DNA from: Fuerstiella sp.
GTDB lineage: Bacteria; Planctomycetota; Planctomycetia; Planctomycetales; Planctomycetaceae
DNA length: 64,000 nt
Assembly: GCA_029247265.1 (NCBI GenBank)
Contig: JAQWLN010000045.1
Location: forward strand, 16,501-80,500
Reading direction: 5' to 3'
The notes below the pieces were generated by a model. That model was not told where the DNA came from. It searched no databases and saw only the letters and a list, made by a program, of their open reading frames with translations. This document shows positions 8,519-49,868 of this stretch, in pieces. Position numbers and translations under genes: made by a program. Position 1 is the stretch's first letter; every line of letters starts with the position of its first letter.

Positions 8519-8865
8519 AATCTGCTCCTAGAGGGAGGTTTTTAAGGGCGGGGCGGCGACTGACCGGGAAAAGTCCATCAATCCGTGGCGGAACTATGTC
8601 AGAAATGAAACGTATTGGCAACGGGTTCCCGCGCTCTGAAATTAACATATATCAACGAACCGATTAGGCTTCGCATCGATTCCCGGTGTCCGTTTATAAT
8701 GCGAATTGCATGCGTCAGTGCCGAATTTTGAGGATCGGCGACTGCTTCTCGTCGTCTTGTGTTTATTATTACACGCATTAACGAATCAATTTCTTCCCAA
8801 AGATCATGCTGCTGTGCGGTCCGAACCGGACGTGAATCAGCGGCTCAATATCAGGAGTGGGTGTA

Positions 8866-10275
8866 GTGAGTGAAGGACAAATGACTGTCGGCAACTACGA
8901 ACTGCGCAACTGCGTCGCGTCGGGCACGTCAACTCAGATCTGGGAAGTGGTTGAAGCCGGCACCCCTATGCAGCTGGCGATGAAACTGATGCTGGATGAC
9001 GCCCGTAAGGAATCAGCGGAAAAAGCAGTTCTGAAGCACGAATTCAAGGTCGGAAAATCTTTGGAGCATCCGGCCTTTCTTCAGTTCCGCCAACTTGAGA
9101 TGAATCGTGATCACGCTTTCTTCGTCATGGACTTCTTTCGATCACCCAGCCTGAAGACTCACATCACGTCCAATCTTGCGGCCATTCAGTCCGTATTTCC
9201 GAAGATGGCGGAATCGCTGATTCCAGCTTTTCAATATATGCACGAAACCGGCTGGCTGCATCGCGACATCAAGCCCGACAACATTCTTGTCAATAAGGCA
9301 GGGGAAGTCCGCATCATCGACTTTTCGCTATCGTCAAAAGTTATGGGGACTATGGGAAAAATATTGTCCGGCAAGCAAAAAGCGATTCAGGGAACCCGGA
9401 CATATATCGCCCCGGAAACGATTCTGAAAAAACCACCCACGGAACAGACAGACATGTACAGTCTGGGTGTTAGTTTCTTCGAAGTACTGACCGGGCAGCC
9501 ACCGTTTGCAGGGGACTCACCCAACGACCTGCTGAAGAAACACCTGTCGGAAGAACCTGTACCACCGTCTGTCTTCAACCCGAACGTCACGAAAGAGCTG
9601 GACAGAATAATTCTGCAGATGCTGCAGAAGAATCCCGCCAAGCGACTGCCCGGCATGCAGGAACTCGCTAGTGCCTTCAGAACGGTGAATTGCTTCGAAG
9701 TCGATCCGGCCGAATTACACGAACGGAATCAGAAGGAACTCAAAGAACAACAGGCGGACTCTGTTGATAAGCGACTGGATAGTCGCGCTGACGCAGATCG
9801 GATCGCAAAAGGAATTGTCGCTCCGGTCAAGCATAAGAAAAAAATCAAGGTGAGCGAGAAGTTGTTGCGAGAGGAAGAACAACGCAAGGCAGCTGAGGCC
9901 GCCAAAAAGCAAGGGGGCATGCCACAACAGCCGATGTACCAGCCACAGATGCCGATGCAGCCGGGAATGTATCCCGGGCAACCAATGCAGCCGGGAATGT
10001 ATCCGGGCATGCCAGGGCAGCCACATCCGGGGTACGCCCAGATGCCACCGCAGCAGATGCCACCGCAGCAAATGCCACCACAGCAAATGCCACCGCAGCA
10101 AATGCCACCGCAGCAAATGCCACCGCAGCAGATGCCACCACAGCAAATGCCGGCACAAGAGCCGGGGCAAACGGTCAATGCACCTCCGCCCGCTGGCCAG
10201 GTCGCGGCCAATGACTCTGAAGAGGTCACGACTGAAGACCTGATGGATTTGATGTCAGAACTCAAAATCGAGTAG
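8866..10275 (+). CDS. serine/threonine protein kinase with Met/Pro/Gln-rich repetitive C-terminal region
   Basis: LAMKLMLDD, HRDIKPDNILVNKAGEVRIIDFS, GTRTYIAPETILKKPPTEQTDMYSLGVSFFEVLTGQPPF. GTG at 8866 has AGGAG at 8853-8857, so the listed start 8857 overlaps the likely ribosome-binding site. Confidence 0.92.
   Translation: MSEGQMTVGNYELRNCVASGTSTQIWEVVEAGTPMQLAMKLMLDDARKESAEKAVLKHEFKVGKSLEHPAFLQFRQLEMNRDHAFFVMDFFRSPSLKTHITSNLAAIQSVFPKMAESLIPAFQYMHETGWLHRDIKPDNILVNKAGEVRIIDFSLSSKVMGTMGKILSGKQKAIQGTRTYIAPETILKKPPTEQTDMYSLGVSFFEVLTGQPPFAGDSPNDLLKKHLSEEPVPPSVFNPNVTKELDRIILQMLQKNPAKRLPGMQELASAFRTVNCFEVDPAELHERNQKELKEQQADSVDKRLDSRADADRIAKGIVAPVKHKKKIKVSEKLLREEEQRKAAEAAKKQGGMPQQPMYQPQMPMQPGMYPGQPMQPGMYPGMPGQPHPGYAQMPPQQMPPQQMPPQQMPPQQMPPQQMPPQQMPPQQMPAQEPGQTVNAPPPAGQVAANDSEEVTTEDLMDLMSELKIE
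10042..10146 (+). repeat. 15-bp tandem repeat x7 encoding MPPQQ
   Basis: ATGCCACCGCAGCAG and synonymous variants, 7 consecutive units, followed by a degenerate unit encoding MPAQE. Confidence 0.95.
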
Positions 10276-13014: not shown

Positions 13015-13464
13015 TCAGAACGTCTTTCGACTGTCCAGTAGCAGCGTTACGGGACCGTCGTTGACCAGTTCCACATCCATCTGAGCCTGAAAGGTGCCCG
13101 TTTCGACCACGACGCCTCGCCCTCGCAGTTCAGCAACGAAGCTTTGATAAAGACTGTCAGCGAGTTCCGGACGAGCTGCGGAGACAAACGCCGGCCGACG
13201 CCCTTTGCGACAGTCTCCTAACAACGTGAACTGGCTGACAACCAGAGCGGATCCAGCCACGTCCGTCAGGTCGAGATTCATCTTACCGTCGCCGTCCTCG
13301 AACACGCGCAGTCCTGCAACCTTGCCCGCCAGCCAGACAACGTCTTCCTGAGCATCGTCTGCCGCGACCCCCAGCAGGATCAACAACCCCTGCTGAATGG
13401 CCCCGACAACTTCTGCATCAACCGTTACGGACGCTCTGGAAACTCGTTGAACAACGGCACGCAT
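13015..13464 (-). CDS. dtd: D-aminoacyl-tRNA deacylase
   Basis: [37 protein letters not shown]...[27 protein letters not shown]. Confidence 0.95.
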
Positions 13465-13602: not shown

Positions 13603-14427
13603 TCAGAATTTTCCGACCCGTCGTTCGCGAGACGGCAGAATTTCCAGGCACGTTGTCCACCAGCCGGTCATCACCGTCTGAATAAACTCGTCCGGCAGCT
13701 TCTCGCGACGCATCTCGTTCGCCAGTAATTCGTAATCGTAGGCCACGGGAACAAAGTCGACTGACACCGGAATGGCCCCGCCGTTCGCAGTGCAGGGAAG
13801 GGCGTCCGAATCGGCATCGGACCCAGTACGCAGAACGGTGTACCAGACATTCGTACTGCCGTCGTTCTCGGGGCGTCCCAGGACACCAACGTTCACATAA
13901 CGACGAAGATCTCTCAGTTCCCGCTGCCAGTGAATTCCGGTATGAGTTCCGATAATCAGATCTGCTGATCGTTCGTCGGCCAGCCGGTTCAAAAATGCAG
14001 TGCTGGTGGTTGACTGCCAGAGAAACTCGTTGGTCCGGCGCGGGCTGCCATGACAGAGTAACAGGCGAAGGCCGTCAACAGTCAATCCTAGTTCCTTTGG
14101 CAAACCACGGAGCCAGGCTTTGTTATCTGCGCAGGTGTTTTGCAGCGTGTAGTCGTAGCTAACCTGTGCGAAGTGGTTGTCATCGGGGTCCGTGTAGCCG
14201 CACTGACAATCGTTCAGTTCGTTTCCGATACTGTCGTCGTAGTTGCCCTGCACGCAAATAATTTCATGTTGACGCAGCAACGGGAAAACGCGATCGGGAT
14301 AAGGCCCGAACGCACCAAGATCTCCCAGACAGTACATCGCATCAACATTGCGCTGCTGCGCATCAGCGATGGCAACCTCCAGAGCCAGGTAGTTGCTGTA
14401 TAGTCCACCAAACAGTGCAAGCTTCAT
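13603..14427 (-). CDS. metallophosphoesterase family protein
   Basis: MKLALFGGLYSNYLALEVAIADAQ...AMYCLGDLGAFGPYPD...CVQGNYDDSIG...LLLCHGSPR...IIGTHTGIHW. Confidence 0.9.
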   Translation of the reverse strand: MKLALFGGLYSNYLALEVAIADAQQRNVDAMYCLGDLGAFGPYPDRVFPLLRQHEIICVQGNYDDSIGNELNDCQCGYTDPDDNHFAQVSYDYTLQNTCADNKAWLRGLPKELGLTVDGLRLLLCHGSPRRTNEFLWQSTTSTAFLNRLADERSADLIIGTHTGIHWQRELRDLRRYVNVGVLGRPENDGSTNVWYTVLRTGSDADSDALPCTANGGAIPVSVDFVPVAYDYELLANEMRREKLPDEFIQTVMTGWWTTCLEILPSRERRVGKF

Positions 14428-14433
14428 GGTGAC

Positions 14434-15339
14434 TCAGTCAGATTCCCGCGGGCGCAGCGTTGTGTTGGTGCAGATGGCTCCAAACTGATAACACGTATAG
14501 CAGGCGCCATAATTCAGAGGAAAAGGATGCAGTGACTCGGCCAGTGTGTCTCCCATCTTTCCGTCGCTGGCTTCCAGCAAAATCGGGCAAACGTAGACGC
14601 CTCGATTAGTGATCACGCGACTGTGATGGCACAACAGCTGATTTCTGTCAAAGCCCTCCATCATCTGATGTGTGATACGTTCTGTTTCAGCGTATCCTTC
14701 CATCCGGTTTTCTTCGGCGCCGATCTTCAGACGAGGCAGAATTTTCAGACGAGGTCGGTGGCACCCAAGTTGTCGCAGCACATCTCGAAACTGCTGCAGG
14801 ATCTCAGCGTTGCGGGAATCGTCCCATGTTTGAGTCATCGTAATGATGGGCAAAAAGTCGTGTTCGCACAGCAAAGCAACCCCCTTGATGGCTCGTTCAA
14901 AGGTGCCGTCACCGCGGATAGGGTCGTTAATTTCGGCAGCTGGCCCGTCAACTGAAACGCGAAATTCAAGACTGAATCCGGACTGCTCTTCAGCTGCACG
15001 TAATTCGCTCAGCCACTCCGGCTTCAACACGGTTCCATTTGTCAGGACGGTCGCTGGTCCAAAATCCAGCGTACGCTTCAACATGGGTACCAGATTTCTG
15101 TTCAGAAACGGTTCACCACCCGTGAAGTAATATTCGCGCACCCCCTGTTCAACAGACTCCAACAATGCCGTTTCGACCTGTTCAAAACTCAGAAACTCGA
15201 AACTGTGATTGTTGGGACTACAGCTGATGAAGCAGTGTCGGCAAGTCAGATTGCAGATCGTTCCAGCGACCTGAAACCAGAGTTCGTCAAGCGACGTCAG
15301 TTCAATACGTGGCGTGTCCATGACTTCCGGATTACTCAC
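14434..15339 (-). CDS. radical SAM protein with C-terminal cysteine-rich region
   Basis: LWFQVAGTICNLTCRHCFISCSPN (CxxxCxxC), EYYFTGGEPFLNRNLVPML, C-term CHHSRVITNRGVYVCPILLEASDGKMGDTL...CYTCYQFGAICTN (auxiliary cluster-like). Confidence 0.92.
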   Translation of the reverse strand: MSNPEVMDTPRIELTSLDELWFQVAGTICNLTCRHCFISCSPNNHSFEFLSFEQVETALLESVEQGVREYYFTGGEPFLNRNLVPMLKRTLDFGPATVLTNGTVLKPEWLSELRAAEEQSGFSLEFRVSVDGPAAEINDPIRGDGTFERAIKGVALLCEHDFLPIITMTQTWDDSRNAEILQQFRDVLRQLGCHRPRLKILPRLKIGAEENRMEGYAETERITHQMMEGFDRNQLLCHHSRVITNRGVYVCPILLEASDGKMGDTLAESLHPFPLNYGACYTCYQFGAICTNTTLRPRESD

Positions 15340-16667
15340 GGTGCGATTCCTTCCGTGACCGTCACCTGTTCGGTCAGCGCAATGTGATCAAACAGTGTGT
15401 CAATCTGTTTCAAACCGTTCTGCAGCAAGAATCGTGAATCGCGGCCGTAACTGGCAGCACCAAGAATAAAGAAGTTGGGTTCCGGGTTCTGCAACAGCTC
15501 CGGCCCGCCGACACTTTGTTGCAGGCAGTCGCCCGAAGATTCACCCAGCAGGTGAGCGGACAGTTTCATCGGACCGTCCGTGGCGTAGCATCGATGAACC
15601 TGCAGCTCTCGAAAAGCGTCTGTGTTCGGTCGAAACCCGGCATTCGCAACAATGCGGTCCACGACAACCTGCTCCCTGCCCTTCTCTGCAGATTCGTCCT
15701 CTTCCGGCCACGTCAAACCTACCCGAATTCTGGCAGCCGTGCGACTCAGCTGATCGATCAGCGGTCCCGCCAGCCACTCCACGCACGAATCCGCTTGCAG
15801 CGCCAGTCGATTGGCATTCTCCGTCAGCGTCGTCCGTTCCACCAGTACATCGTTGTCGGCCAGCGGTATGGGGGCATTGCGGTTGCCGCGAGTGACCCAG
15901 GTGATCCGCGTCGCTGGTACAGAAGTCTGAAGTTCCGCCAGGAGACAAACCGATGTGGCTGCTGAGTAGCCACTGCCGACAACCAGAGTGTGGCGACCTG
16001 CAAATTGCTCACGATCATCACCGGAAATCTCGGGGATCCGATAGTCTGCATCAGACAATACAGTCGACTCTCCCGGGCACGGCATCCCGCCGGCCCCAAT
16101 AAACCGGTGCCCGGACACAAAGCCGGTGCAATCCACCAGCACATCTGACTCAAATACTTTTTCAAATCCGGCGGCTTCAACTGAACGCTCAGATCCACCG
16201 CTGGATGACTCAAGATCAAAATCCTCAATGCCGTCCGAATCAGAGCATTCAGAATGCACCCGGCACAGGATCCGAAACGGTTTGGTTCCTCGCACAGGCT
16301 GACCGATAAGGTCTGACTTACCACATGTCGATCGGCTGACAGCAACCACTTCATGCTGTTCCAGCACGCTGACATCCGAGCGGATTCCTTCAGCCAATGG
16401 TTCCAGGTAACTCATCACGTACTCATTGCCAGAAAGTATCGAATCGTCCCCCGGCAGAAGTGCCCTGGCCGCAACGGCCGTTCTGCCAGCGAACGAACTG
16501 TTCATTTTGAAGGGCGTAAACAGACGCACATGCCCCCAGCGCCTGACAGCATCGCCGACGCATCCCTTCTCCAGAATCGTAACATCGAATCCATCAGCAC
16601 TCGCGCGAAGCGCCGTTTCCAGTCCAATCGGACCGCCACCCACAATGATAAGTCTTCGTTTGCTCAT
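15336..16667 (-). CDS. FAD/NAD(P)-binding oxidoreductase
   Basis: MSKRRLIIVGGGPIGLETALRASADGFDVTILEKG...LVVGSGYSAATSVCLLAEL; 4-nt overlap with the downstream radical SAM gene (15336-15339). Confidence 0.9.
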   Translation of the reverse strand: MSKRRLIIVGGGPIGLETALRASADGFDVTILEKGCVGDAVRRWGHVRLFTPFKMNSSFAGRTAVAARALLPGDDSILSGNEYVMSYLEPLAEGIRSDVSVLEQHEVVAVSRSTCGKSDLIGQPVRGTKPFRILCRVHSECSDSDGIEDFDLESSSGGSERSVEAAGFEKVFESDVLVDCTGFVSGHRFIGAGGMPCPGESTVLSDADYRIPEISGDDREQFAGRHTLVVGSGYSAATSVCLLAELQTSVPATRITWVTRGNRNAPIPLADNDVLVERTTLTENANRLALQADSCVEWLAGPLIDQLSRTAARIRVGLTWPEEDESAEKGREQVVVDRIVANAGFRPNTDAFRELQVHRCYATDGPMKLSAHLLGESSGDCLQQSVGGPELLQNPEPNFFILGAASYGRDSRFLLQNGLKQIDTLFDHIALTEQVTVTEGIAP

Positions 16668-16673
16668 GTTTAT

Positions 16674-17789
16674 TCAGACAACGGAAGGCATTGTGATGCG
16701 AGTCGGGCTCAGACCATCCAGACTGATGGCTGGAGTGCGGTCCATCATCAAGTCTGCCAGAATACCGGCCGTGGCGGGGGACATCTGTAACCCAGACCGG
16801 AAATGCCCTGCCCCGACAAACACGTTGTCATATCCGGGCACAGGTCCCAGAAACGGCAACTCGTCCGGAGACCCCGGCCGCAGTCCCGCCCAGCAGCGAA
16901 CGACTTCAGCGGCTCCCAATTCCGGCACAATGGATTCAGCGAAACCAAGCAATCCGGAAATGCCCTCGGTCGTATTTCTCTTTTCAAAACCAACATGCTC
17001 CTGCGTTGAGCCGACAAGAATCAGCCCATCAGCCCGCGGCACCAGATAACGGCGGCCCAGTTCGATGACGCACTGAAACGGCAACTGACCGACTCGTAAC
17101 TGAGCGATCTGTCCGCGTACCGGAGCCACTGGAAGTTTAACACCCAGCGGCTTCATCAGTTGCCCCGTCCATGCCCCCGCAGTCAGACACAACCGGTCTG
17201 CTCCAAAGCGCCGTGACGGCGAATTCACTTCAACTGTCCTGCCCTGCGCACGAATGGTCAAGGAGTCCACATCTTCCACGATTTCCACTCCCAGCCCCTG
17301 ACAGGCCGTCGTCAAGGCTTTCAGGTGCCGAGGGTTCCTGACCTGAGCAAATTCCGGCAGAAATGCGCCGCGTTGAAACTGGGTATGCAGGCCCGGCACG
17401 TATCGCTCAAGCGCTGCACGATCGAGTGTGTCACAGTCCAGACCTTCAGCACGCCACTGTTTAATCTGTGAATCAACGGCCGGACCGTCGAGTCCCACTT
17501 CCACGGCTCCACATTTTCTGTAGCCGTTATCGATCCCGCTCAGCTCTCTCAGTTGAGCGGAAAATTGTTCCCACAGATCATAGCTGCAGGAACGCAAACG
17601 GGCTTCGGGAGTTGCAGCGGTCGCCGCATGCCCGGGAGGCAACATCCCGGCACCAGCCCATGATGCTTCCGTACCGACACGTTGCCGGTCCACGACGATC
17701 ACCGAAACGCCCTGCCCTGCCAACTGGAAGGCCGTAGTGAGCCCGATGACTCCGCCGCCGATGATCAAAATATCCGATCCGTATTGCAT
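16674..17789 (-). CDS. FAD-dependent glycine/D-amino-acid oxidase (ThiO-like)
   Basis: DILIIGGGVIGLTTAFQLAGQGVSVIVVDRQRVGTEASWAGAGMLPPG...GLRPGSPDELPFLGPVPGYDNVFVGAGHFRSGLQMSPATAGILADL. Confidence 0.88.
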   Translation of the reverse strand: MQYGSDILIIGGGVIGLTTAFQLAGQGVSVIVVDRQRVGTEASWAGAGMLPPGHAATAATPEARLRSCSYDLWEQFSAQLRELSGIDNGYRKCGAVEVGLDGPAVDSQIKQWRAEGLDCDTLDRAALERYVPGLHTQFQRGAFLPEFAQVRNPRHLKALTTACQGLGVEIVEDVDSLTIRAQGRTVEVNSPSRRFGADRLCLTAGAWTGQLMKPLGVKLPVAPVRGQIAQLRVGQLPFQCVIELGRRYLVPRADGLILVGSTQEHVGFEKRNTTEGISGLLGFAESIVPELGAAEVVRCWAGLRPGSPDELPFLGPVPGYDNVFVGAGHFRSGLQMSPATAGILADLMMDRTPAISLDGLSPTRITMPSVV

Positions 17790-40216: not shown

Positions 40217-43200
40217 TTGACGACGATGGCAGACACTCGCGTTCCTTCGAAGCAAACACACATGTTCGCTCGGCCAGCCGATTTCATTGCTGCGGCCATT
40301 TCAGCGGCTATCCGCTGGATGGTTGTCGCCTCGTGTCTGGCGGGGTCAGTTGCACTGGCTCAGGAACCTGAGGCAACGGAATCTGAAGCAACGGTCAAAT
40401 CGACAGACCTTGACACGCTGGAACCCGGGGTACATGTCATTCAAAAGATGGCCTCCGGAAGAATTTATGCGTTGCCCGGCTTCGACCTGTTGATGAAGGA
40501 GTTTCTGGAGCGGGCACGGCTGCAGGCCTTTCCTCCCGTCCATCGAATTGCTGACGTTCAGATCTCAGGCGTGGTGGGACAGGAGCTTGCTGAGTTGAAG
40601 GCGGATATAACCGTCGATATTTTTCGGGACGGCGAACGGGTGTCTGTTCCGGTCGGATTTGATGACCTGCAGCTTAAGGAGCATTCTCACAGCTCTACGC
40701 TGCCGGACCTGTCTGCACTTCCGATTGAGACGAAACTTCCTCGCAAAGAGTGGATCTTTCAAGGTCTTGGGCGGCACAAGTTGCAACTGTCGCTGATCGG
40801 CCCGATTCGGACCGCCACCAACGGCACTCGTCGCCTGAAAGTATCGGCGCCAAAGTCGGGCCAGAGCGGCCTGAGGTTGCATTTTTCCGAAACCGTCGCC
40901 GACGCTGAACTGTCGACGGAGGGACCGTTTCAGCTGATAACAGACGATGCCACCGGAAAGTCTGAACTCGTCACATGGGGACTGACTGAAGATACTGAGA
41001 TCACATGGACTCCTGCCTCGGCCGTCGAGAACCAGATCGCAACGGTCCAGGCAACGTCACCTGCGCAAATGACGCTGGATCTGACCACAGAACCCGCTTC
41101 TTTCCGCGGCACTCAGGCATTGACAGTGTCCGGTGGTTCAATCAGCGAATTGCAGATTCATCTGCCCAATGGATTTGAGCCGGTCACAATGACCGCCACA
41201 GACGCAGACGGAAACTCAATCAGTGACCCCACAGCAACAGTCGCTGAGACGGACGATGGGGTCCTGGTGCTCCGGCTGGAATCACCGGCAACGGGCGCAG
41301 TGATCCTGAACTACGATTTCAATCTGAAAGACACCGCTTATCCACAGAACATTTCGGTTCGCATGCCGGATATTTCGAGCGTGTCCAATGAATCGGCAGA
41401 TGTGGATATCTTTGTTTCGGGAGGATTGGACATTGAACGTCCAAAGGAGATCAACGTTCGGCGAAGTCGAGTCGAATCGACGCGAGTCGGGCGCACCCCG
41501 GCGCTGGCATATCGATTGCTTTCCAGTGAGTCGCAGGTCACGTTAAGAATCAGTGAAAGCGAGGCGTTTTTTGCCGTTGCCCCACATATCAACTTTACGA
41601 CCGAGCAGGACAACGTACATCTAAAGGCCCGTTTCTCCGTCAATATGGTTCGCGGCTCGCTGAATCAGCTTGAAATTGTCTGGCCCAATCACATTCGGGA
41701 TGGCTGGCAGATCCTGGACGGGTCCACATCACTGGTCTCTGAAACCGGGCCGGCGTTTGTGTCAGGTTTCGGGGCAGACGATGACGTGGATAAATATACG
41801 CTGGTGTTTCAGGAGCGGCAATCGGGACAGTTCGATATCGAAGTACAGGCATTTCGCGACCTGGCAGGCTTCAAGGATGGTGAAGGACTGATGTTTCTTC
41901 CTGATATCAAATCGTCAGCACCACACTCCACGATCGTTTCACTGGTTGAGTCCGATGCGTATTCCATGTTTCTCAGCCCGCAGAATGAACAGGCTGCGTT
42001 TCCGGCGCTGCCATCCAATCGATGGCCCCTGGAACTGCAGAATCAGACGCGCCCCGAAGCATGGTTACTTGACAATTCGGACGAGGCTGTGCGGTTGCGT
42101 ATCACCCAGCAAAAACCGGAAGTTCGAACTTCATTACTGACGTCCATTTCCGTCGCCAACGAGAGCCTGCATGTTCGAGAAGTTCTATCCTACGACGTTC
42201 GGTTTCGTGACCTTTCCGATATCAGGCTCCAGTTGCCGGACGTGGTGCCGACGGTCCGTCTGAGCGGTTTCGATGATCCGCTGATACCATCGCGAACGGA
42301 AGGTCGCACTGTTACATATGGCCTGCCTAAAGCGATGCGGGGGAAGTTTGATCTGACAATCGCTTACAACTGGCTGCCGAAGGAGACCGGAAGCCCTAAT
42401 GAACTACAGAATTTGAATCTCCCGCTTGTCCTGCCTGCAACATCAGGTGAACTGCTGGAGCATGCGACGGTGGCGACCAATTTCCCACAAACACTTGTTC
42501 TGCACCAGGCAGAAGACTGGGCACCTGTCTACTCAGAACAGTACGCAGCGGCGTGGCGGTCTGAAACTGTGCCGGACACGCTGCCGATCGTCCTTAAGCA
42601 ACCGCTGACGACACGTTCCGAAAATGCTCCACAGTTCATGGTTGCAACAACCTTCTTTCAGGCACCTGACGCTCTGATCACGAATGTGACAGCGGTTTTT
42701 ACTCACCCTTCTGACACCGTCTGGTTTGTGATCGACAAAACCGTGAAACCACTACAGGGCGCTATGAACAACAGGCCCGCAGCGGTGAAGTGTCTGTTTC
42801 CTCTGGATGACGCGAAGCAATGGGTGCAGTTGCGGGCTCCGAATGACGCAGCACTGGATTCTCCGGCAACCGTGACCCTGATGGTTCGGCATGTTGTCGA
42901 CAAACCAGACTTCGGTGCCCTGAGCGAAGTCACCCTGCCCTACATTGCCGGACATTCCGACTGTAACGCGATCTGGATTCTTCGACAAACCGAAGGCCAT
43001 GCACTGGTTGGCCTGGAAAGCACTCTGACAGCTCTTAACAGTAACGTCATTTCCAGGCTATTCCCCGGTTCGGCCACTGATTTCGTAACGGCAACGGCGA
43101 CGATTCTATCGCCGTGTGAGCAGTCCGTCCGTGAAAAAGTGACCGATCTGCTGAACCGTTCGATTGAACCCAATGCCCGCCACGAACTCCTCGCAGGATC

Positions 43201-43600
43201 AGTCGGGGGACCCAAACGACTGCTGACGGTCACCAGCAGCGCCGTCCTCCTGGGAGCGGCTCTGTTGTGTGTACTGCTCTATTTTCTGTTACTCAGGCTG
43301 CACAATGTACCGTTAACGACAGTCCTGACGTGCCTGGCGGTTGCTGTCACCACGATCGTGTCACTCACACCGGTGGGACTGCACGGAATCATGCTGAACC
43401 TCCTGCCGATGTGCGTGATCGGGGTCGTTGCGGCCGCCATACAGCGTTTCGTCGGCAGAACCCGGCCCTCCCTCGAGAGCATCAGTGCTGCCGATGGCAG
43501 TACGATATTTGCAATCGAAAAACCATCCTTTGTCGAAGAACAAGGGGTCGCGCCAGTCAGCCATTCCACCATCCCGTCTTCAAAACTCAGTGTTACCTGA
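40217..43600 (+). CDS. large secreted/membrane-anchored hypothetical protein (1127 aa)
   Basis: Signal-like IRWMVVASCLAGSVALAQE; long beta-rich low-Cys region; C-terminal TM cluster (AVLLGAALLCVLLYFLLL ... TTVLTCLAVAVTTIVSLTPVGLHGIMLNLLPMCVIGVVAA). Confidence 0.85.
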   Translation: MTTMADTRVPSKQTHMFARPADFIAAAISAAIRWMVVASCLAGSVALAQEPEATESEATVKSTDLDTLEPGVHVIQKMASGRIYALPGFDLLMKEFLERARLQAFPPVHRIADVQISGVVGQELAELKADITVDIFRDGERVSVPVGFDDLQLKEHSHSSTLPDLSALPIETKLPRKEWIFQGLGRHKLQLSLIGPIRTATNGTRRLKVSAPKSGQSGLRLHFSETVADAELSTEGPFQLITDDATGKSELVTWGLTEDTEITWTPASAVENQIATVQATSPAQMTLDLTTEPASFRGTQALTVSGGSISELQIHLPNGFEPVTMTATDADGNSISDPTATVAETDDGVLVLRLESPATGAVILNYDFNLKDTAYPQNISVRMPDISSVSNESADVDIFVSGGLDIERPKEINVRRSRVESTRVGRTPALAYRLLSSESQVTLRISESEAFFAVAPHINFTTEQDNVHLKARFSVNMVRGSLNQLEIVWPNHIRDGWQILDGSTSLVSETGPAFVSGFGADDDVDKYTLVFQERQSGQFDIEVQAFRDLAGFKDGEGLMFLPDIKSSAPHSTIVSLVESDAYSMFLSPQNEQAAFPALPSNRWPLELQNQTRPEAWLLDNSDEAVRLRITQQKPEVRTSLLTSISVANESLHVREVLSYDVRFRDLSDIRLQLPDVVPTVRLSGFDDPLIPSRTEGRTVTYGLPKAMRGKFDLTIAYNWLPKETGSPNELQNLNLPLVLPATSGELLEHATVATNFPQTLVLHQAEDWAPVYSEQYAAAWRSETVPDTLPIVLKQPLTTRSENAPQFMVATTFFQAPDALITNVTAVFTHPSDTVWFVIDKTVKPLQGAMNNRPAAVKCLFPLDDAKQWVQLRAPNDAALDSPATVTLMVRHVVDKPDFGALSEVTLPYIAGHSDCNAIWILRQTEGHALVGLESTLTALNSNVISRLFPGSATDFVTATATILSPCEQSVREKVTDLLNRSIEPNARHELLAGSVGGPKRLLTVTSSAVLLGAALLCVLLYFLLLRLHNVPLTTVLTCLAVAVTTIVSLTPVGLHGIMLNLLPMCVIGVVAAAIQRFVGRTRPSLESISAADGSTIFAIEKPSFVEEQGVAPVSHSTIPSSKLSVT

Positions 43601-43632
43601 CTGCGGCGTAGTGCCGCATCGTTGCGTTTGTA

Positions 43633-46600
43633 TGTCACGTTCTGTTTTCATTGGCACCATGTTAATGCTGGCTCCGCTCGCCGATGCCCAGCCATCGGTC
43701 TCTGCGCCGACAGATGTTGCGATCCCAATGAACGACAAGTCGGTCAGGGTCATCGATCCGGCTGAGTTTGGTCAGCTCCCGGATGCGAATCGATTTGTGC
43801 CTGTGCCTAGGGAGCAGCTTGCTGAGCTGCTGCGACTCAGACACGAACTTGCACTGCAGCCGGAGCCGGCGTCGCCTGTCAGAAAAGCCGAGCTGTCCGC
43901 AACTCTGGAGGGAATGACTCTTCGTGACGGTCGACTTAAACTGCAACTTTACCCGCCATCGTCTGCGCCACGTCAGCACAGGCCACTCAGGATCGCCGCG
44001 ACGAATCTGCAGGAACTGGAACTTCGTTCGGCTGGACATCCGGTTGTCATCGCCAGCGACCACATGGGCGACCTGGTCATCCTGAACAATACGGCCGACG
44101 TGCTCGACGGGACCTGGACAGCCCATGGAGACATGATCGGTTCGGATCTGGTGTTTCAACTGGCGCTGCCATCGGCATCGGTCTGTCAGTTCGTCCTGAC
44201 GACCGACGCTGACGTTCATGTTGCCAGCCCCGACGCTTTGGTACTGCCGAAGGCGGGGCCGCAGGGAAAGCGTTCCTGGGAACTCCACCCTCGGTCCCCT
44301 GACGCTTTAACGGTCAAATGTTCCCGCGACAGGAGTTCCGATGACAACGAGACGACTACGATCGATACCGTGGCCAGCATTCGACCTGGCCCCCATACAG
44401 CAGATGCGGAATGGGTAATCACTCTTCCTTCCCGGCTGAGCGGCGCGCTCATGGTGCTCGCTCTGAACGCGCCGTGTACGGTCACGGGAGTCGATCTCAG
44501 CACTGGCCGGCCGTTACCTTTCGATGCAAAATCGCACCCCCAAGGTACTGATTTGCGAATTCAGTTGCCGGTACTCACGGCGAGTGCGGTAATAAAAATC
44601 CAGGGACGCTTCGCAACCGAAATTGACACTGACGCGCGTCTTCCCGTTTTATCTCCAAAAACCTGGATCACTGGCTCCGCCACAAACGAACTTGCACTGA
44701 AATCTTCCTCCATACGCATCAGTGTTCCTCCCGAGCTGGATGTGCGCAGCCTGAATCTTACTGGTCTTCGGGAAAGGGATGTCGCATACCAGGCAGATGG
44801 AAGTCAAAGACTCGATCTCAGTCAGTTTTCGAAAACAGCATCGGCTGACATCCGCCTTTCAGCATCGCGGGCCGTCGTAAACGATGCCATTTTTATGCAG
44901 GCAGACTCGACAGAGAAAGAAGCCACTGCGTATGTCCGTGTCGAAGTTGTCTCCGGATTCCTGAGTGAAGTTTCGTGGACGACACCGGCATCCTGGCGTG
45001 TGACGGGTGTCCACGAAGCGGATTCTCAACGGCCTCTGCTGTTTCAGATGGCGGACGAAGGTGTAAACGGAGCACCGTCCCGTATCACCGCGTATCTGAG
45101 AGCTCCCCTGACCTCACTACCGCCGGACAACAGCCAAATTCTGGTCATCAATCTTCAGTCCACAGGGAGCGTATTTCCGAGACAATGGGTGGCACCGCGT
45201 TTGCAGAACCCTGACTACAACATGGGCCCTGAACTGCAGTCAATCGAAACACAGGAGGCTGACATTCCGACGATCAGTCCAGTGGCCGCATTCCTGACGG
45301 CTGACGACGTCAGGAATCTTCTGCCGTGGCTTCCGGAACAGGTATTGGAATCGGTCGTCAACGCTCAACGTACGCCCTCGACGTCCGGGCCACCCCCGTC
45401 ACTGACATCGACCATCGGGCCAACGTCAGCAACAATCGACTACGCGGTGGCCATGGAGCAGGATTCTGTCCGGGAAACACTACGCGTTCGGCTCAGATCA
45501 ACTGACGCGTTGCCAAAACGAATTCCGTTGCGCGTGACACCGGGTGTCGATGTGCAGATTTCCGACGAATCCGTCACTCAGCCCGTCCCGAGTCTTACCC
45601 GTCAGAATTCCGGCGGGACCGAGGAAATTTTTCTCGAAATCCCCGCCGGCGTAGACACGAGCAATACGCTGGACATTCTGCTCGTATCATTGCGTCCTCT
45701 GGCGGCAGAAATGCCTGCCGCCTTGATTTCATTGCCCGATGCCGACCACACCGTTGGCGCGCTGCAGCCACCACTTGTTGAATCCAATCTGTCAATTTCG
45801 TTCACGAACGATGACGTCGCAGGAGACGTGACCGAGCCAATTCCTTATCCCACGGAACCGTTCGCCAATGCGATCACAATTCGCAACCTGGCCGAACGCA
45901 CTTCACGGCAGGAAGTCTCCGGGCTCGCCATGGCACTGGTCGAACGAAACCACGGTGGTTTTACGGTTGAAATCGCGCACCGTCTTCTGGTTCGCAGTGT
46001 CGGAAATCGCGATGAACTGATAATTCAGCAACCGACCACCGGCCTGTTTATTGTCTTCGTCGATGGACGACCGGCATTTCCCGATCAATCGCAGGACCGA
46101 TACAGAATTGCACTGCCAACAGACCGTGAATATGCCGTTGTTGACGTCTACCTTGCCTGTGAGTTGCCCAACGTGCAGCAGGAGACGAACGTACTGCATC
46201 TGCCAATGCTGGCGTTCCCTGCAACGGAATCCGGCAACGTCACCTGTTCCATTCTGCCCCCCCGACAGCACACTCTAACGCTCGCGAACAATGCGATGTG
46301 CTCCGACACCAGATCCGCCGATTTCATCAGCCGGACGTTCACGGAACGCTACTCACTTCAGACGAACCCGGAACTTTCCGAAAGATTTCGGCCAATGCTG
46401 ACGCGGTGCCAACTACGTAAGGTGGGAATGAACTCAGTCACAGTTCTGGAAAGCTCTCTCGATTCCAATATTGTCGAACTGCAGTTCGAAGAAACGGGAG
46501 GTCGCGTCCCGCAGACGATCATGCTGGCTTCTGTCGCATTCCTCATCTGGCTGGCATTACGGAGAATGAGTCCGGTGCCACTCTGGTCAATCGGAGTCGT

Positions 46601-49600
46601 CCTGTTGGCGATACTTGCGGCGTATCACATGGGCGGATACAGCTCAACGGTTGTCCTGAATGGCCTGTCGATCGGCACACTCTGTTTCGCTGCGCTTTCC
46701 GCCGGGCGCAGGGTCAGGAAACGTCTGCATCGTGGACCGGTGACCGGACCACCGAATTCTCAGTTCCAATCCTCGACTGCCGTTATGCTGCTGTGTCTGG
46801 CTTTTGCATCTACGCCAGCCAGGGCAGATGAATCGCGCGAACAGATACTGGTCCCCGTACAACAGGAAGAGGCATTCCCCTATATCTACGTCGACAGCGA
46901 ACTTCTTTCACAACTCAACTCTGTGAAGATGCAAATGAGTACGCTGGCATATGTCATCCAGACTGACGTGAGCATAGAGGTCGAAGCAGCGGATTCCGTA
47001 ACCGCGACGATGCAGTGCCTGGTGGCTTCGCCTCCACACAGTTCGTCGCAGCTGAACATCCCGTTTGATGGGGTAACGCTGGTCGACTGTTTGCTTGATG
47101 GAGTAAGAGTCTTTCCCTCCGTTGAACAGACCGACAACGGGCAAATTGAGATACCACAGCGCTCACTGCTGCCGTCGTCTCCACTGGGGTCGTCTGAGAC
47201 AAGTCCTTCGACACAGGGACGTGACGCTTTGGGAGGGTGGAACCTGCGAACCATTCGCTACTCCGTTCGATGCACACGCAAATTGCTGACGGCAACGGAA
47301 TTCCGCATCAGCATTCCGCACAGCCGTTCCCCGGTCACGCGAGTCAGCCTGTCAGATCCATCGCAAATCGTCGCGACTGCCAGTCATGGAGATGCGGAGA
47401 AGTCCGGCACATCGATCCGCGAAGATGATCTGATCAGCTTTCCGACCGTGTATAACGACGAACGCATCATCGTCGACATCGCGCTCCGATCGGCGGCGGA
47501 GACAGCCGCGAGCACCAGCCAATCCGTCCGCGTTGTCTGTACTGCCGATATTTCGCACTTGAATCAGCGACTCAACTCCGAATATTCGGTCACTGAAACA
47601 GGAAACAGGTCCACGTCCGTCAACCTGGGCGTTACGCCAGGCCATCAGATAACACGTATTGAGTCACTGACAGGAGAAGAGCTGCCCTGGTCTATTAACA
47701 ACGGCAAACTGACTGTTGTCGTCCCGGCCAACAGTGAGGGACTCCAGCAATTTATCGTGCAACAGGTTCAGGAATCCCCCATCAGTCTGCATCACTCAAT
47801 ACCTGTTGGCGCCATCGCCATGGTAAACGGTCACCGGGCAGCCGATGTGATTATTGCTGCCGGAACGTCGGATGAATTTTTCATCTCGTCAATTCAGGCT
47901 CCGGATGCAGACCTGCACGAACCGGAACAGAACCGAATTGAACAGCTTCCCGAACGTCTGCAGAATTCACAATGGATTGTTGCTGTCCCGGAAACGACAA
48001 CTCGGGTGAATGTCGAACTTGTCGCACGCATCACGGCCAAAGAGGCAGAGTTGTCGCAGGAAGTAGTCGTCTTCGACGATCGTATTGAGTGGAAAGCACA
48101 ATGCCGGATCCAGGTACTTGGAAACCCCACATTCCGTCAGACATTCATCGTGTCTCCGGATGTCCGCATCGAAGACGTTTCCGCAAGTGTCGGCGCCACG
48201 GCGAGGCTGCAGTCATGGACCAGAGACAAAGAATCCGTCATTGTCTCATTCCGCGAAGCAACTCGCGGACTCGTCGTCGTCGACTTCTCGGGACATGTCA
48301 TCCGCGAACCCGGAAAGCCTACTGTACTGCCAGTGTTCGCTCTGCCGGCCCCCATTGCAACGCTGGAGTCAACTCTGGTGATATCCTCCACTACATCATC
48401 GGACACTTTCATTAAAGACCTGCAAAGTGCAGTGCCGCTCACCAGAATTGATACTGCCAGGTATGTGCTTTCCGAAACTCCGCTGCAGACGGATTTGACT
48501 GATGATTCCCGCCCCCCCATCATTCGCCCCAGTGAAGACCAGATTCTGCGTGCCGAAATTGTCGCCGTGCTCCACAACGCCGAAGGCAAGACTCAAATCA
48601 CCGAATTCATTTATCTCGAACCCCAGCGCAGCGGGTTTGACATTCACTGCAGACCGCCTTCCGGACTGGATGTGAACAACCTGACTGTCGCGATCGACGG
48701 TCAGCAGGTGCCGGTCATGCAGGAATCCGGCGGAATTGTCATCGCGCGTGAAGCACGTGGGGCGCCTGATACGCGCACTGTGCTTATCGTTGCGGACGTA
48801 CCGACCACCGCACGTGATGGACTGCTCACCGCAGCCCTGCCGGCTTTCGAAGCTGACCTGAAGATCAGTTCCTGCGAAGTTTACGATGCACGCGACCTGC
48901 CATCTGCCACCGAGGACTCGAATAACGTGCCGGCATGGGTAGCCGAAGCTGCAAATACACGGGGGCTATCAGCGTTTCCGCCGAACCTTCATAAACCTCG
49001 ATGCGACGCGACCGTACCGGAGAACCTGATTACGGTTTATCTGTCCGAACAGCAAAGGAAATCCCAACCCGTCGAACCGGTCAGTGGCGTCGCGTATGTC
49101 CACGCACTCCACGACGTACAACTGGGCGTCGCCACGACAATCGGACGTTCGGAATTCATGGTCTTTGCCACACACAAGGACGCAATGATTGAAGTGGACG
49201 TGCCGCTTAGAACCAGGATCGTTGATGTGAAGCACAACGGCTTCCCGGTTCCATTTTCGCTGACGGACAACGTCATCTACCTTCATGGTACGGCGGCGGT
49301 GGGACGCTTCGAAATCCAGTGGCGGCGCCAGTCGGAAACGTCGATGTTTCAGCACGAGTTCCTGTTGCCTTCCGTCGCCGCACCGGACCAGCGCGGTCTG
49401 ATCAGACTGGCCGCGATCGATGAAACACTCTGGTGGTCATCAAGCAACAAAACCGAAGATTTGCAACAATGGCAAATTGACAGCCAGTCATCCATAGCAC
49501 AGGGATTTTCACGCATCGAACAGCCGGCAGCGGTGCCCGAAACTGCCGTACCGGAGAATCTGCCGACCATCATCGCAGCGCCTGAATGGCAGCAACTTGT

Positions 49601-49868
49601 GGTCGCCTCCAGAGAAGCGGCCGAATCACTGCTGCATACCATCGCCAACGAATCGGCCGCGTCAGAATACCGATATTTTTCAACGCGCCTCAGGCCCGAA
49701 ATAGCGGTCACACTGGTACCAACACCCGGCAGAATAAGTCTCCTGGTCGGCATATGTGCGATTGCAATGATTGCCGTGCCGCCCGGATTGCGATGGCGAT
49801 GGAACCGTGCAAGACAGCAACAGTCGGAGCCGGAGTCACGTCAGACTCAGCAATCTGACGCGTCCTGA
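43633..49868 (+). CDS. giant secreted/membrane hypothetical protein (~2078 aa from MSRSVFIGT)
   Basis: ORF 43428..49868; internal ATG at 43633 gives signal peptide MSRSVFIGTMLMLAPLADAQPS and avoids overlap with the preceding CDS. Internal TM cluster then MLLCLAFASTPARADES at ~46516-46840; C-term TM ISLLVGICAIAMIAVPPGLRW. Confidence 0.85.

Follow-up and report, generated by a model that had tools for sequence, protein, structure and literature searches.

Introduction

Two bacterial radical S-adenosylmethionine (SAM) routes to carbon-arsenic (C-As) bonds have been described, that of ArsS and that of the arsinothricin enzyme ArsL (PMC12159101). In the arsenosugar pathway ArsS is partnered with ArsM, and a gene of the TIGR04282 family (T4282) is found nearby in several operons; in the arsinothricin cluster arsQML (PMC8552651) C-As bonds are likewise made by a set which combines a radical SAM enzyme with ArsM. 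Another protein of importance here is Car1 of Rufibacter tibetensis, which has the fold of a metallophosphoesterase and which, as quoted in a report of 2025 (PMC12124457, citing Shen et al. 2024), is an arsenate reductase dependent on Cys74 and Cys76; the same report also describes the metallophosphoesterase of Paraclostridium ars operons as resembling it. In this work we have analysed a 64,000-nucleotide stretch of a Fuerstiella sp. genome (Planctomycetota; contig JAQWLN010000045.1, positions 16,501 to 80,500), called the window below, which carries on its minus strand a compact operon for a flavoprotein (FLAV), a radical SAM enzyme (rSAM) and a metallophosphoesterase-fold protein (MPE). Comparison of genomes suggests that this triad is probably part of a planctomycete organoarsenical (arsenosugar-like) pathway working together with ArsM, in which rSAM would be a non-orthologous counterpart of ArsS and form the C-As bond. 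No literature on the FLAV-rSAM-MPE triad itself was found.

Results

The operon consists of the three core genes and a preceding gene for a ThiO-type oxidase (window coordinates):

16674..17789, minus strand: ThiO-type glycine oxidase, 371 amino acids; 277.6 bits with TIGR02352, above the curated cut-off of 250.8; probable optional neighbour
15336..16667, minus strand: FLAV, NAD(P)/FAD oxidoreductase, 443 amino acids; Pyr_redox_3; core member
14434..15339, minus strand: rSAM, radical SAM enzyme, 301 amino acids, GTG start; Radical_SAM; SPASM/twitch-like C-terminal cysteines; core member
15232..15255, minus strand: CNLTCRHC motif of rSAM (C29, C33, C36), radical SAM cluster binding; invariant in 37 homologues
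13603..14427, minus strand: MPE, metallophosphoesterase-fold protein of the Car1-like CxC family, 274 amino acids; Metallophos_2; core member
14179..14211, minus strand: DCQCGYTDPDD insert of MPE with C74 and C76; both cysteines invariant in 40 homologues

Going from ThiO through FLAV and rSAM to MPE the genes are separated by 6 nucleotides, a 4-nucleotide overlap and 6 nucleotides, and the open reading frame coordinates thus bear out the tight packing of four minus-strand genes noted in a first-pass annotation of the sequence. Profile searches gave general family matches only for FLAV, rSAM and MPE, and the closest named relatives of rSAM are those of Fuerstiella metagenome-assembled genomes (planctomycetes).

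Several differences from the described systems were recognized. The identification of rSAM as ArsS was rejected, since it reached 40.6 bits with the ArsS model TIGR04167, far under the cut-off of 300, and the two enzymes formed separate clades in the tree; additionally, neither FLAV nor MPE was found beside ArsS in the ArsS loci examined. Unlike in arsQML, no ArsQ-type gene was recognised among the conserved neighbours of the triad, where rSAM stands with FLAV and MPE. The window MPE shares the metallophosphoesterase fold of Car1, and its CxC cysteines are residues 74 and 76, exactly the Car1 positions as quoted in PMC12124457, but it is without three metal ligands kept by its ars-operon relatives, and its operon is biosynthetic-looking.

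Gene neighbourhood was followed in the best 80 rSAM loci from a scan of GTDB genomes (denominators are the loci with enough flanking sequence), the titles of which are planctomycete wherever they name the group, and gene presence was counted in 398 sampled Planctomycetia genomes. FLAV was directly upstream of rSAM in 52/69 loci and MPE directly downstream in 53/67, and the three stood together on one strand in 38/60, so the genes do stay neighbours in related genomes and the earlier impression of a conserved, unassigned enzyme set holds. rSAM was present in 80 of the 398 genomes and MPE in 81, 79 of which are rSAM-positive; i.e. 79 of the 80 rSAM-positive genomes have MPE (Fisher p = 4e-80, uncorrected for ancestry), and in the sole exception, G342, the contig ends just past rSAM. 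Both the same-strand loci and this co-occurrence place the operon beyond chance. The rSAM and MPE genes are non-adjacent in 14 of the 79 shared genomes. Both are present at the rSAM locus of Thalassoglobus neptunius KOR42, a planctomycete that can be cultured. Within the window's own family all FLAV-positive genomes shared with the class sample (30/30) carry rSAM, and since FLAV lies far from rSAM in six of the family's genomes (G002, G025, G037, G235, G288, G300), its absence from one locus does not mean gene loss. Co-occurrence even at a distance indicates that, at the genomic level, FLAV, rSAM and MPE behave as a single functional unit. ThiO had been counted earlier as an integral member, but it is an optional neighbour, adjacent in 24/61 loci. 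In the Planctomicrobium-type loci (L045, L047, L057) a 3-dehydroquinate-synthase-like gene occupies the FLAV position before rSAM-MPE, and a Gfo/Idh-type oxidoreductase also follows.

Across the 37 rSAM homologues the CX3CX2C motif and six further cysteines are invariant, five of the latter (C237, C251, C280, C283, C290) standing near the C-terminus in a SPASM/twitch-like arrangement, which substantiates the extra C-terminal cysteines seen previously. The nearest solved folds to the rSAM model are BlsE, SkfB and anSME; rSAM reaches no NCBIfam equivalog and, as judged by these profiles, it is in no characterised subfamily. FLAV is a two-Rossmann FAD/NAD(P) protein (predicted local distance difference test, pLDDT, 86.9 for the model) with YpdA and thioredoxin reductase as nearest solved folds at 13-16% identity. 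Its assignment as the YpdA bacillithiol disulfide reductase was discarded, only the fold being alike (TIGR04018, 35.6 vs 339.9 bits), and so was that as the ArsO flavin monooxygenase (NF040505, 34 bits vs a cut-off of 425).

A search of plasmid records with MPE located its relatives inside ars operons, in the order ArsR-MPE-ACR3-ArsM in Paraclostridium, ACR3-MPE-MPE in Mucilaginibacter and ArsM-ArsR-ArsH-MPE-ArsC in Rubrobacter; the CxC insert is common to most of them, the second Mucilaginibacter copy being without it. The insert which the first-pass annotation had pointed out in a phosphoesterase is real, whereas the protein itself has to be placed in the arsenic-linked Car1-type CxC family. 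In all 40 window-type MPE proteins G8, Y10 and G164 replace the metal ligands D, H and H of the ars-operon relatives; MPE keeps D36, N62, H126 and H162, and the complete two-metal site of these relatives is lacking in the window protein. The invariant CxC and the loss of three ligands of one metal site therefore mark a derived subfamily, with GGxYSN and DCxCG as its motifs, and judging by these residues a role as thiol/arsenic protein is more likely for MPE than one as phosphoesterase. In Picosynechococcus (L117:5124-9508) the neighbours of folE and hemB include a CxC metallophosphoesterase and another metallophosphatase, a setting which we take to suggest zinc limitation rather than arsenic.

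Leaving the triad clade aside, the closest relatives of rSAM (39-40% identity) come from family f64 of the phylum and are single open reading frames in which an ArsM domain follows rSAM. The top scores of this fused domain are with arsenite and arsinothricin methyltransferases, the best model being arsenite methyltransferase (241.6 bits, just below the cut-off of 263). The ArsM domain of the f64 fusions L150-L154 terminates with a cysteine-rich segment (CGPKCC or similar). Among more distant rSAM relatives ArsM was adjacent or fused in the majority of the deeper loci that were examined, and a TIGR04282 transferase and DUF547 also occur in some of them. Two triple fusions (L161:7632-10238 and L164:5878-9891) consist of an N-terminal stretch that by eye is PqqD-type-like, then rSAM/SPASM, then ArsM, which would put a peptide-recognition-like domain on an arsenic enzyme.

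In another lineage of the phylum the triad and ArsM are found in one operon, L168, with the order DUF547-VTT-T4282-FLAV-rSAM-MPE-ArsM. Its FLAV, rSAM and MPE are 38%, 53% and 56% identical to the window orthologues, its T4282 stays under the model cut-off (99.7 vs 134 bits), and the best match of its ArsM, at 349 bits against a cut-off of 500, is the model for arsinothricin ArsM. The order in L175 is T4282-ThiO-FLAV-rSAM-MPE, with ArsM facing at a distance of about 1.9 kilobases, and T4282 stands just upstream of ThiO in 8/80 loci. Outside Planctomycetota, a Roseomonas plasmid (L112) carries T4282, two rSAMs (one 33% identical to that of the window), an MPE of the ligand-less subtype and DUF547, along with a phosphonate-type ABC transporter. 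ArsM was not found on the plasmid record (the chromosome was not searched); the cluster is possibly another organoarsenical system.

ArsM of the L168 type was detected in 128 of the 398 genomes and ArsS in 115. The 128 ArsM genomes comprise 74 with ArsS only, 49 with rSAM only, 3 with both and 2 with neither, thus 126/128 have one or the other. Only 3 genomes contain ArsS together with rSAM, where 23 would be expected (uncorrected for ancestry), and each of these three has two ArsM copies. In the ArsS loci examined ArsM adjoins ArsS, and T4282 is present in several. The tree of 59 ArsM proteins is split with support 100/99 into one clade where 25/28 rows are of the rSAM type and another where 28/31 are of the ArsS type. 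Both systems are present in G117 and G314, and each of these two genomes places one ArsM in either clade, the ArsS-linked copy in the ArsS clade; mere species relatedness is disfavoured as an explanation, because here the copies split by partner inside a single genome. The window's own genome gave no ArsS match, and its ArsM, encoded on another contig (C202:745-1890) and 56% identical to that of L168, falls in the rSAM clade.

Directly downstream of the operon lies the gene of a D-aminoacyl-tRNA deacylase (Dtd; window 13015-13464, minus strand), which was dropped as a member of the system, being present in 19/65 loci only. A protein kinase-like open reading frame (window 8857-10275, plus strand) has QQMPP units as a C-terminal tandem repeat, and kinase genes like it are found again close to the triad of other planctomycetes. 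Further away, two very long, slightly overlapping open reading frames (window 40217-43600 and 43428-49868, plus strand) would encode 1127 and 2146 amino acids.

Discussion

At the level of sequence the triad is strongly paired with ArsM and is connected to arsenic by the conserved operon, co-inheritance, the rSAM-ArsM fusions and operon, the exclusion of ArsS, the partner-specific ArsM clades and the homology of the CxC protein. The substrate, the order of the steps, the transferred group and the electron route are what we infer. The CxC thiols of MPE may bind or reduce the arsenical, holding the arsenic trivalent, and FLAV, as an NADPH flavoprotein, might give the reducing equivalents or tune the oxidation state of the arsenic; ArsM, usually encoded elsewhere in the genome, would carry out the methylation. 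rSAM would then transfer a carbon group to the arsenic of the (methylated) ArsM product, in the simplest case 5'-deoxyadenosyl as in ArsS, and TIGR04282 could act in a later step. We propose only tentatively that rSAM forms a C-As bond made by neither ArsS nor ArsL, i.e. that the group transferred is neither 5'-deoxyadenosyl nor aminocarboxypropyl, or that the arsenic acceptor differs, with MPE assisting as a metallophosphoesterase which has become an arsenic-thiol protein; this would give a new planctomycete class of organoarsenicals.

Several observations weigh against a role in organoarsenical synthesis. No L168-type ArsM was found in 28 of the 80 rSAM-positive genomes, and four of these ArsM-lacking genomes, when re-tested, gave one other ArsM and three weak matches only. 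Furthermore, ArsM lies away from the triad in the majority of triad genomes examined, ars resistance genes are absent from the neighbourhood in the window, and exceptions occur in both clades of the ArsM tree (three rows and two rows, of which one has a long branch). The loss of three ligands from one metal site of MPE belongs here as well, since the protein is then not necessarily active as an arsenate reductase.

The triad might also act on arsenic in detoxification or degradation, MPE reducing arsenate or pentavalent organoarsenicals, FLAV re-reducing MPE and rSAM cleaving the C-As bond. This would agree with the resistance role of the MPE relatives in ars operons and with the disulfide-reductase-like fold of FLAV; nevertheless the rSAM-ArsM fusion and the alternation with ArsS are consistent with an action that follows methylation, TIGR04282 accompanies both the ArsS and the rSAM systems, and we consider such a function unlikely. 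It is quite improbable that the target is another element handled by ArsM-like enzymes, e.g. selenium or antimony: arsenite and arsinothricin methyltransferases are the best matches of the fused ArsM domain, and ACR3, ArsC and ArsH accompany relatives of MPE, although it is homology alone, not activity, that links ArsM and MPE to arsenic, and CxC relatives occur also outside ars operons, as beside folE and hemB in Picosynechococcus. Slightly less credible still is the modification of a peptide or conventional cofactor by rSAM (SPASM- or RiPP-like, RiPP being a ribosomally synthesized and post-translationally modified peptide), with a secondary association to ArsM. The nearest solved folds of rSAM are indeed SPASM peptide enzymes and BlsE, and the L161 and L164 fusions have their PqqD-type-like stretch, but no conserved precursor was found among the clustered neighbouring open reading frames of at least 80 amino acids (shorter ones were not clustered), and the mutual exclusion with ArsS would be left unexplained. 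A thiamine-related operon centred on ThiO is very improbable: ThiO exceeds its equivalog cut-off and lies 6 nucleotides from FLAV, but it is adjacent in the minority of loci given above, and rSAM and MPE persist without it.

If the triad does belong to an organoarsenical pathway with ArsM, then a third enzyme, rSAM, would be added, non-orthologous and alternating with ArsS across the phylum, and organoarsenical synthesis would have evolved more than once. More bacteria would be known as sources of compounds resembling arsenosugars or arsenolipids, and a protein set so far annotated generically would gain a function. The role of CxC metallophosphoesterases beyond resistance operons becomes testable.

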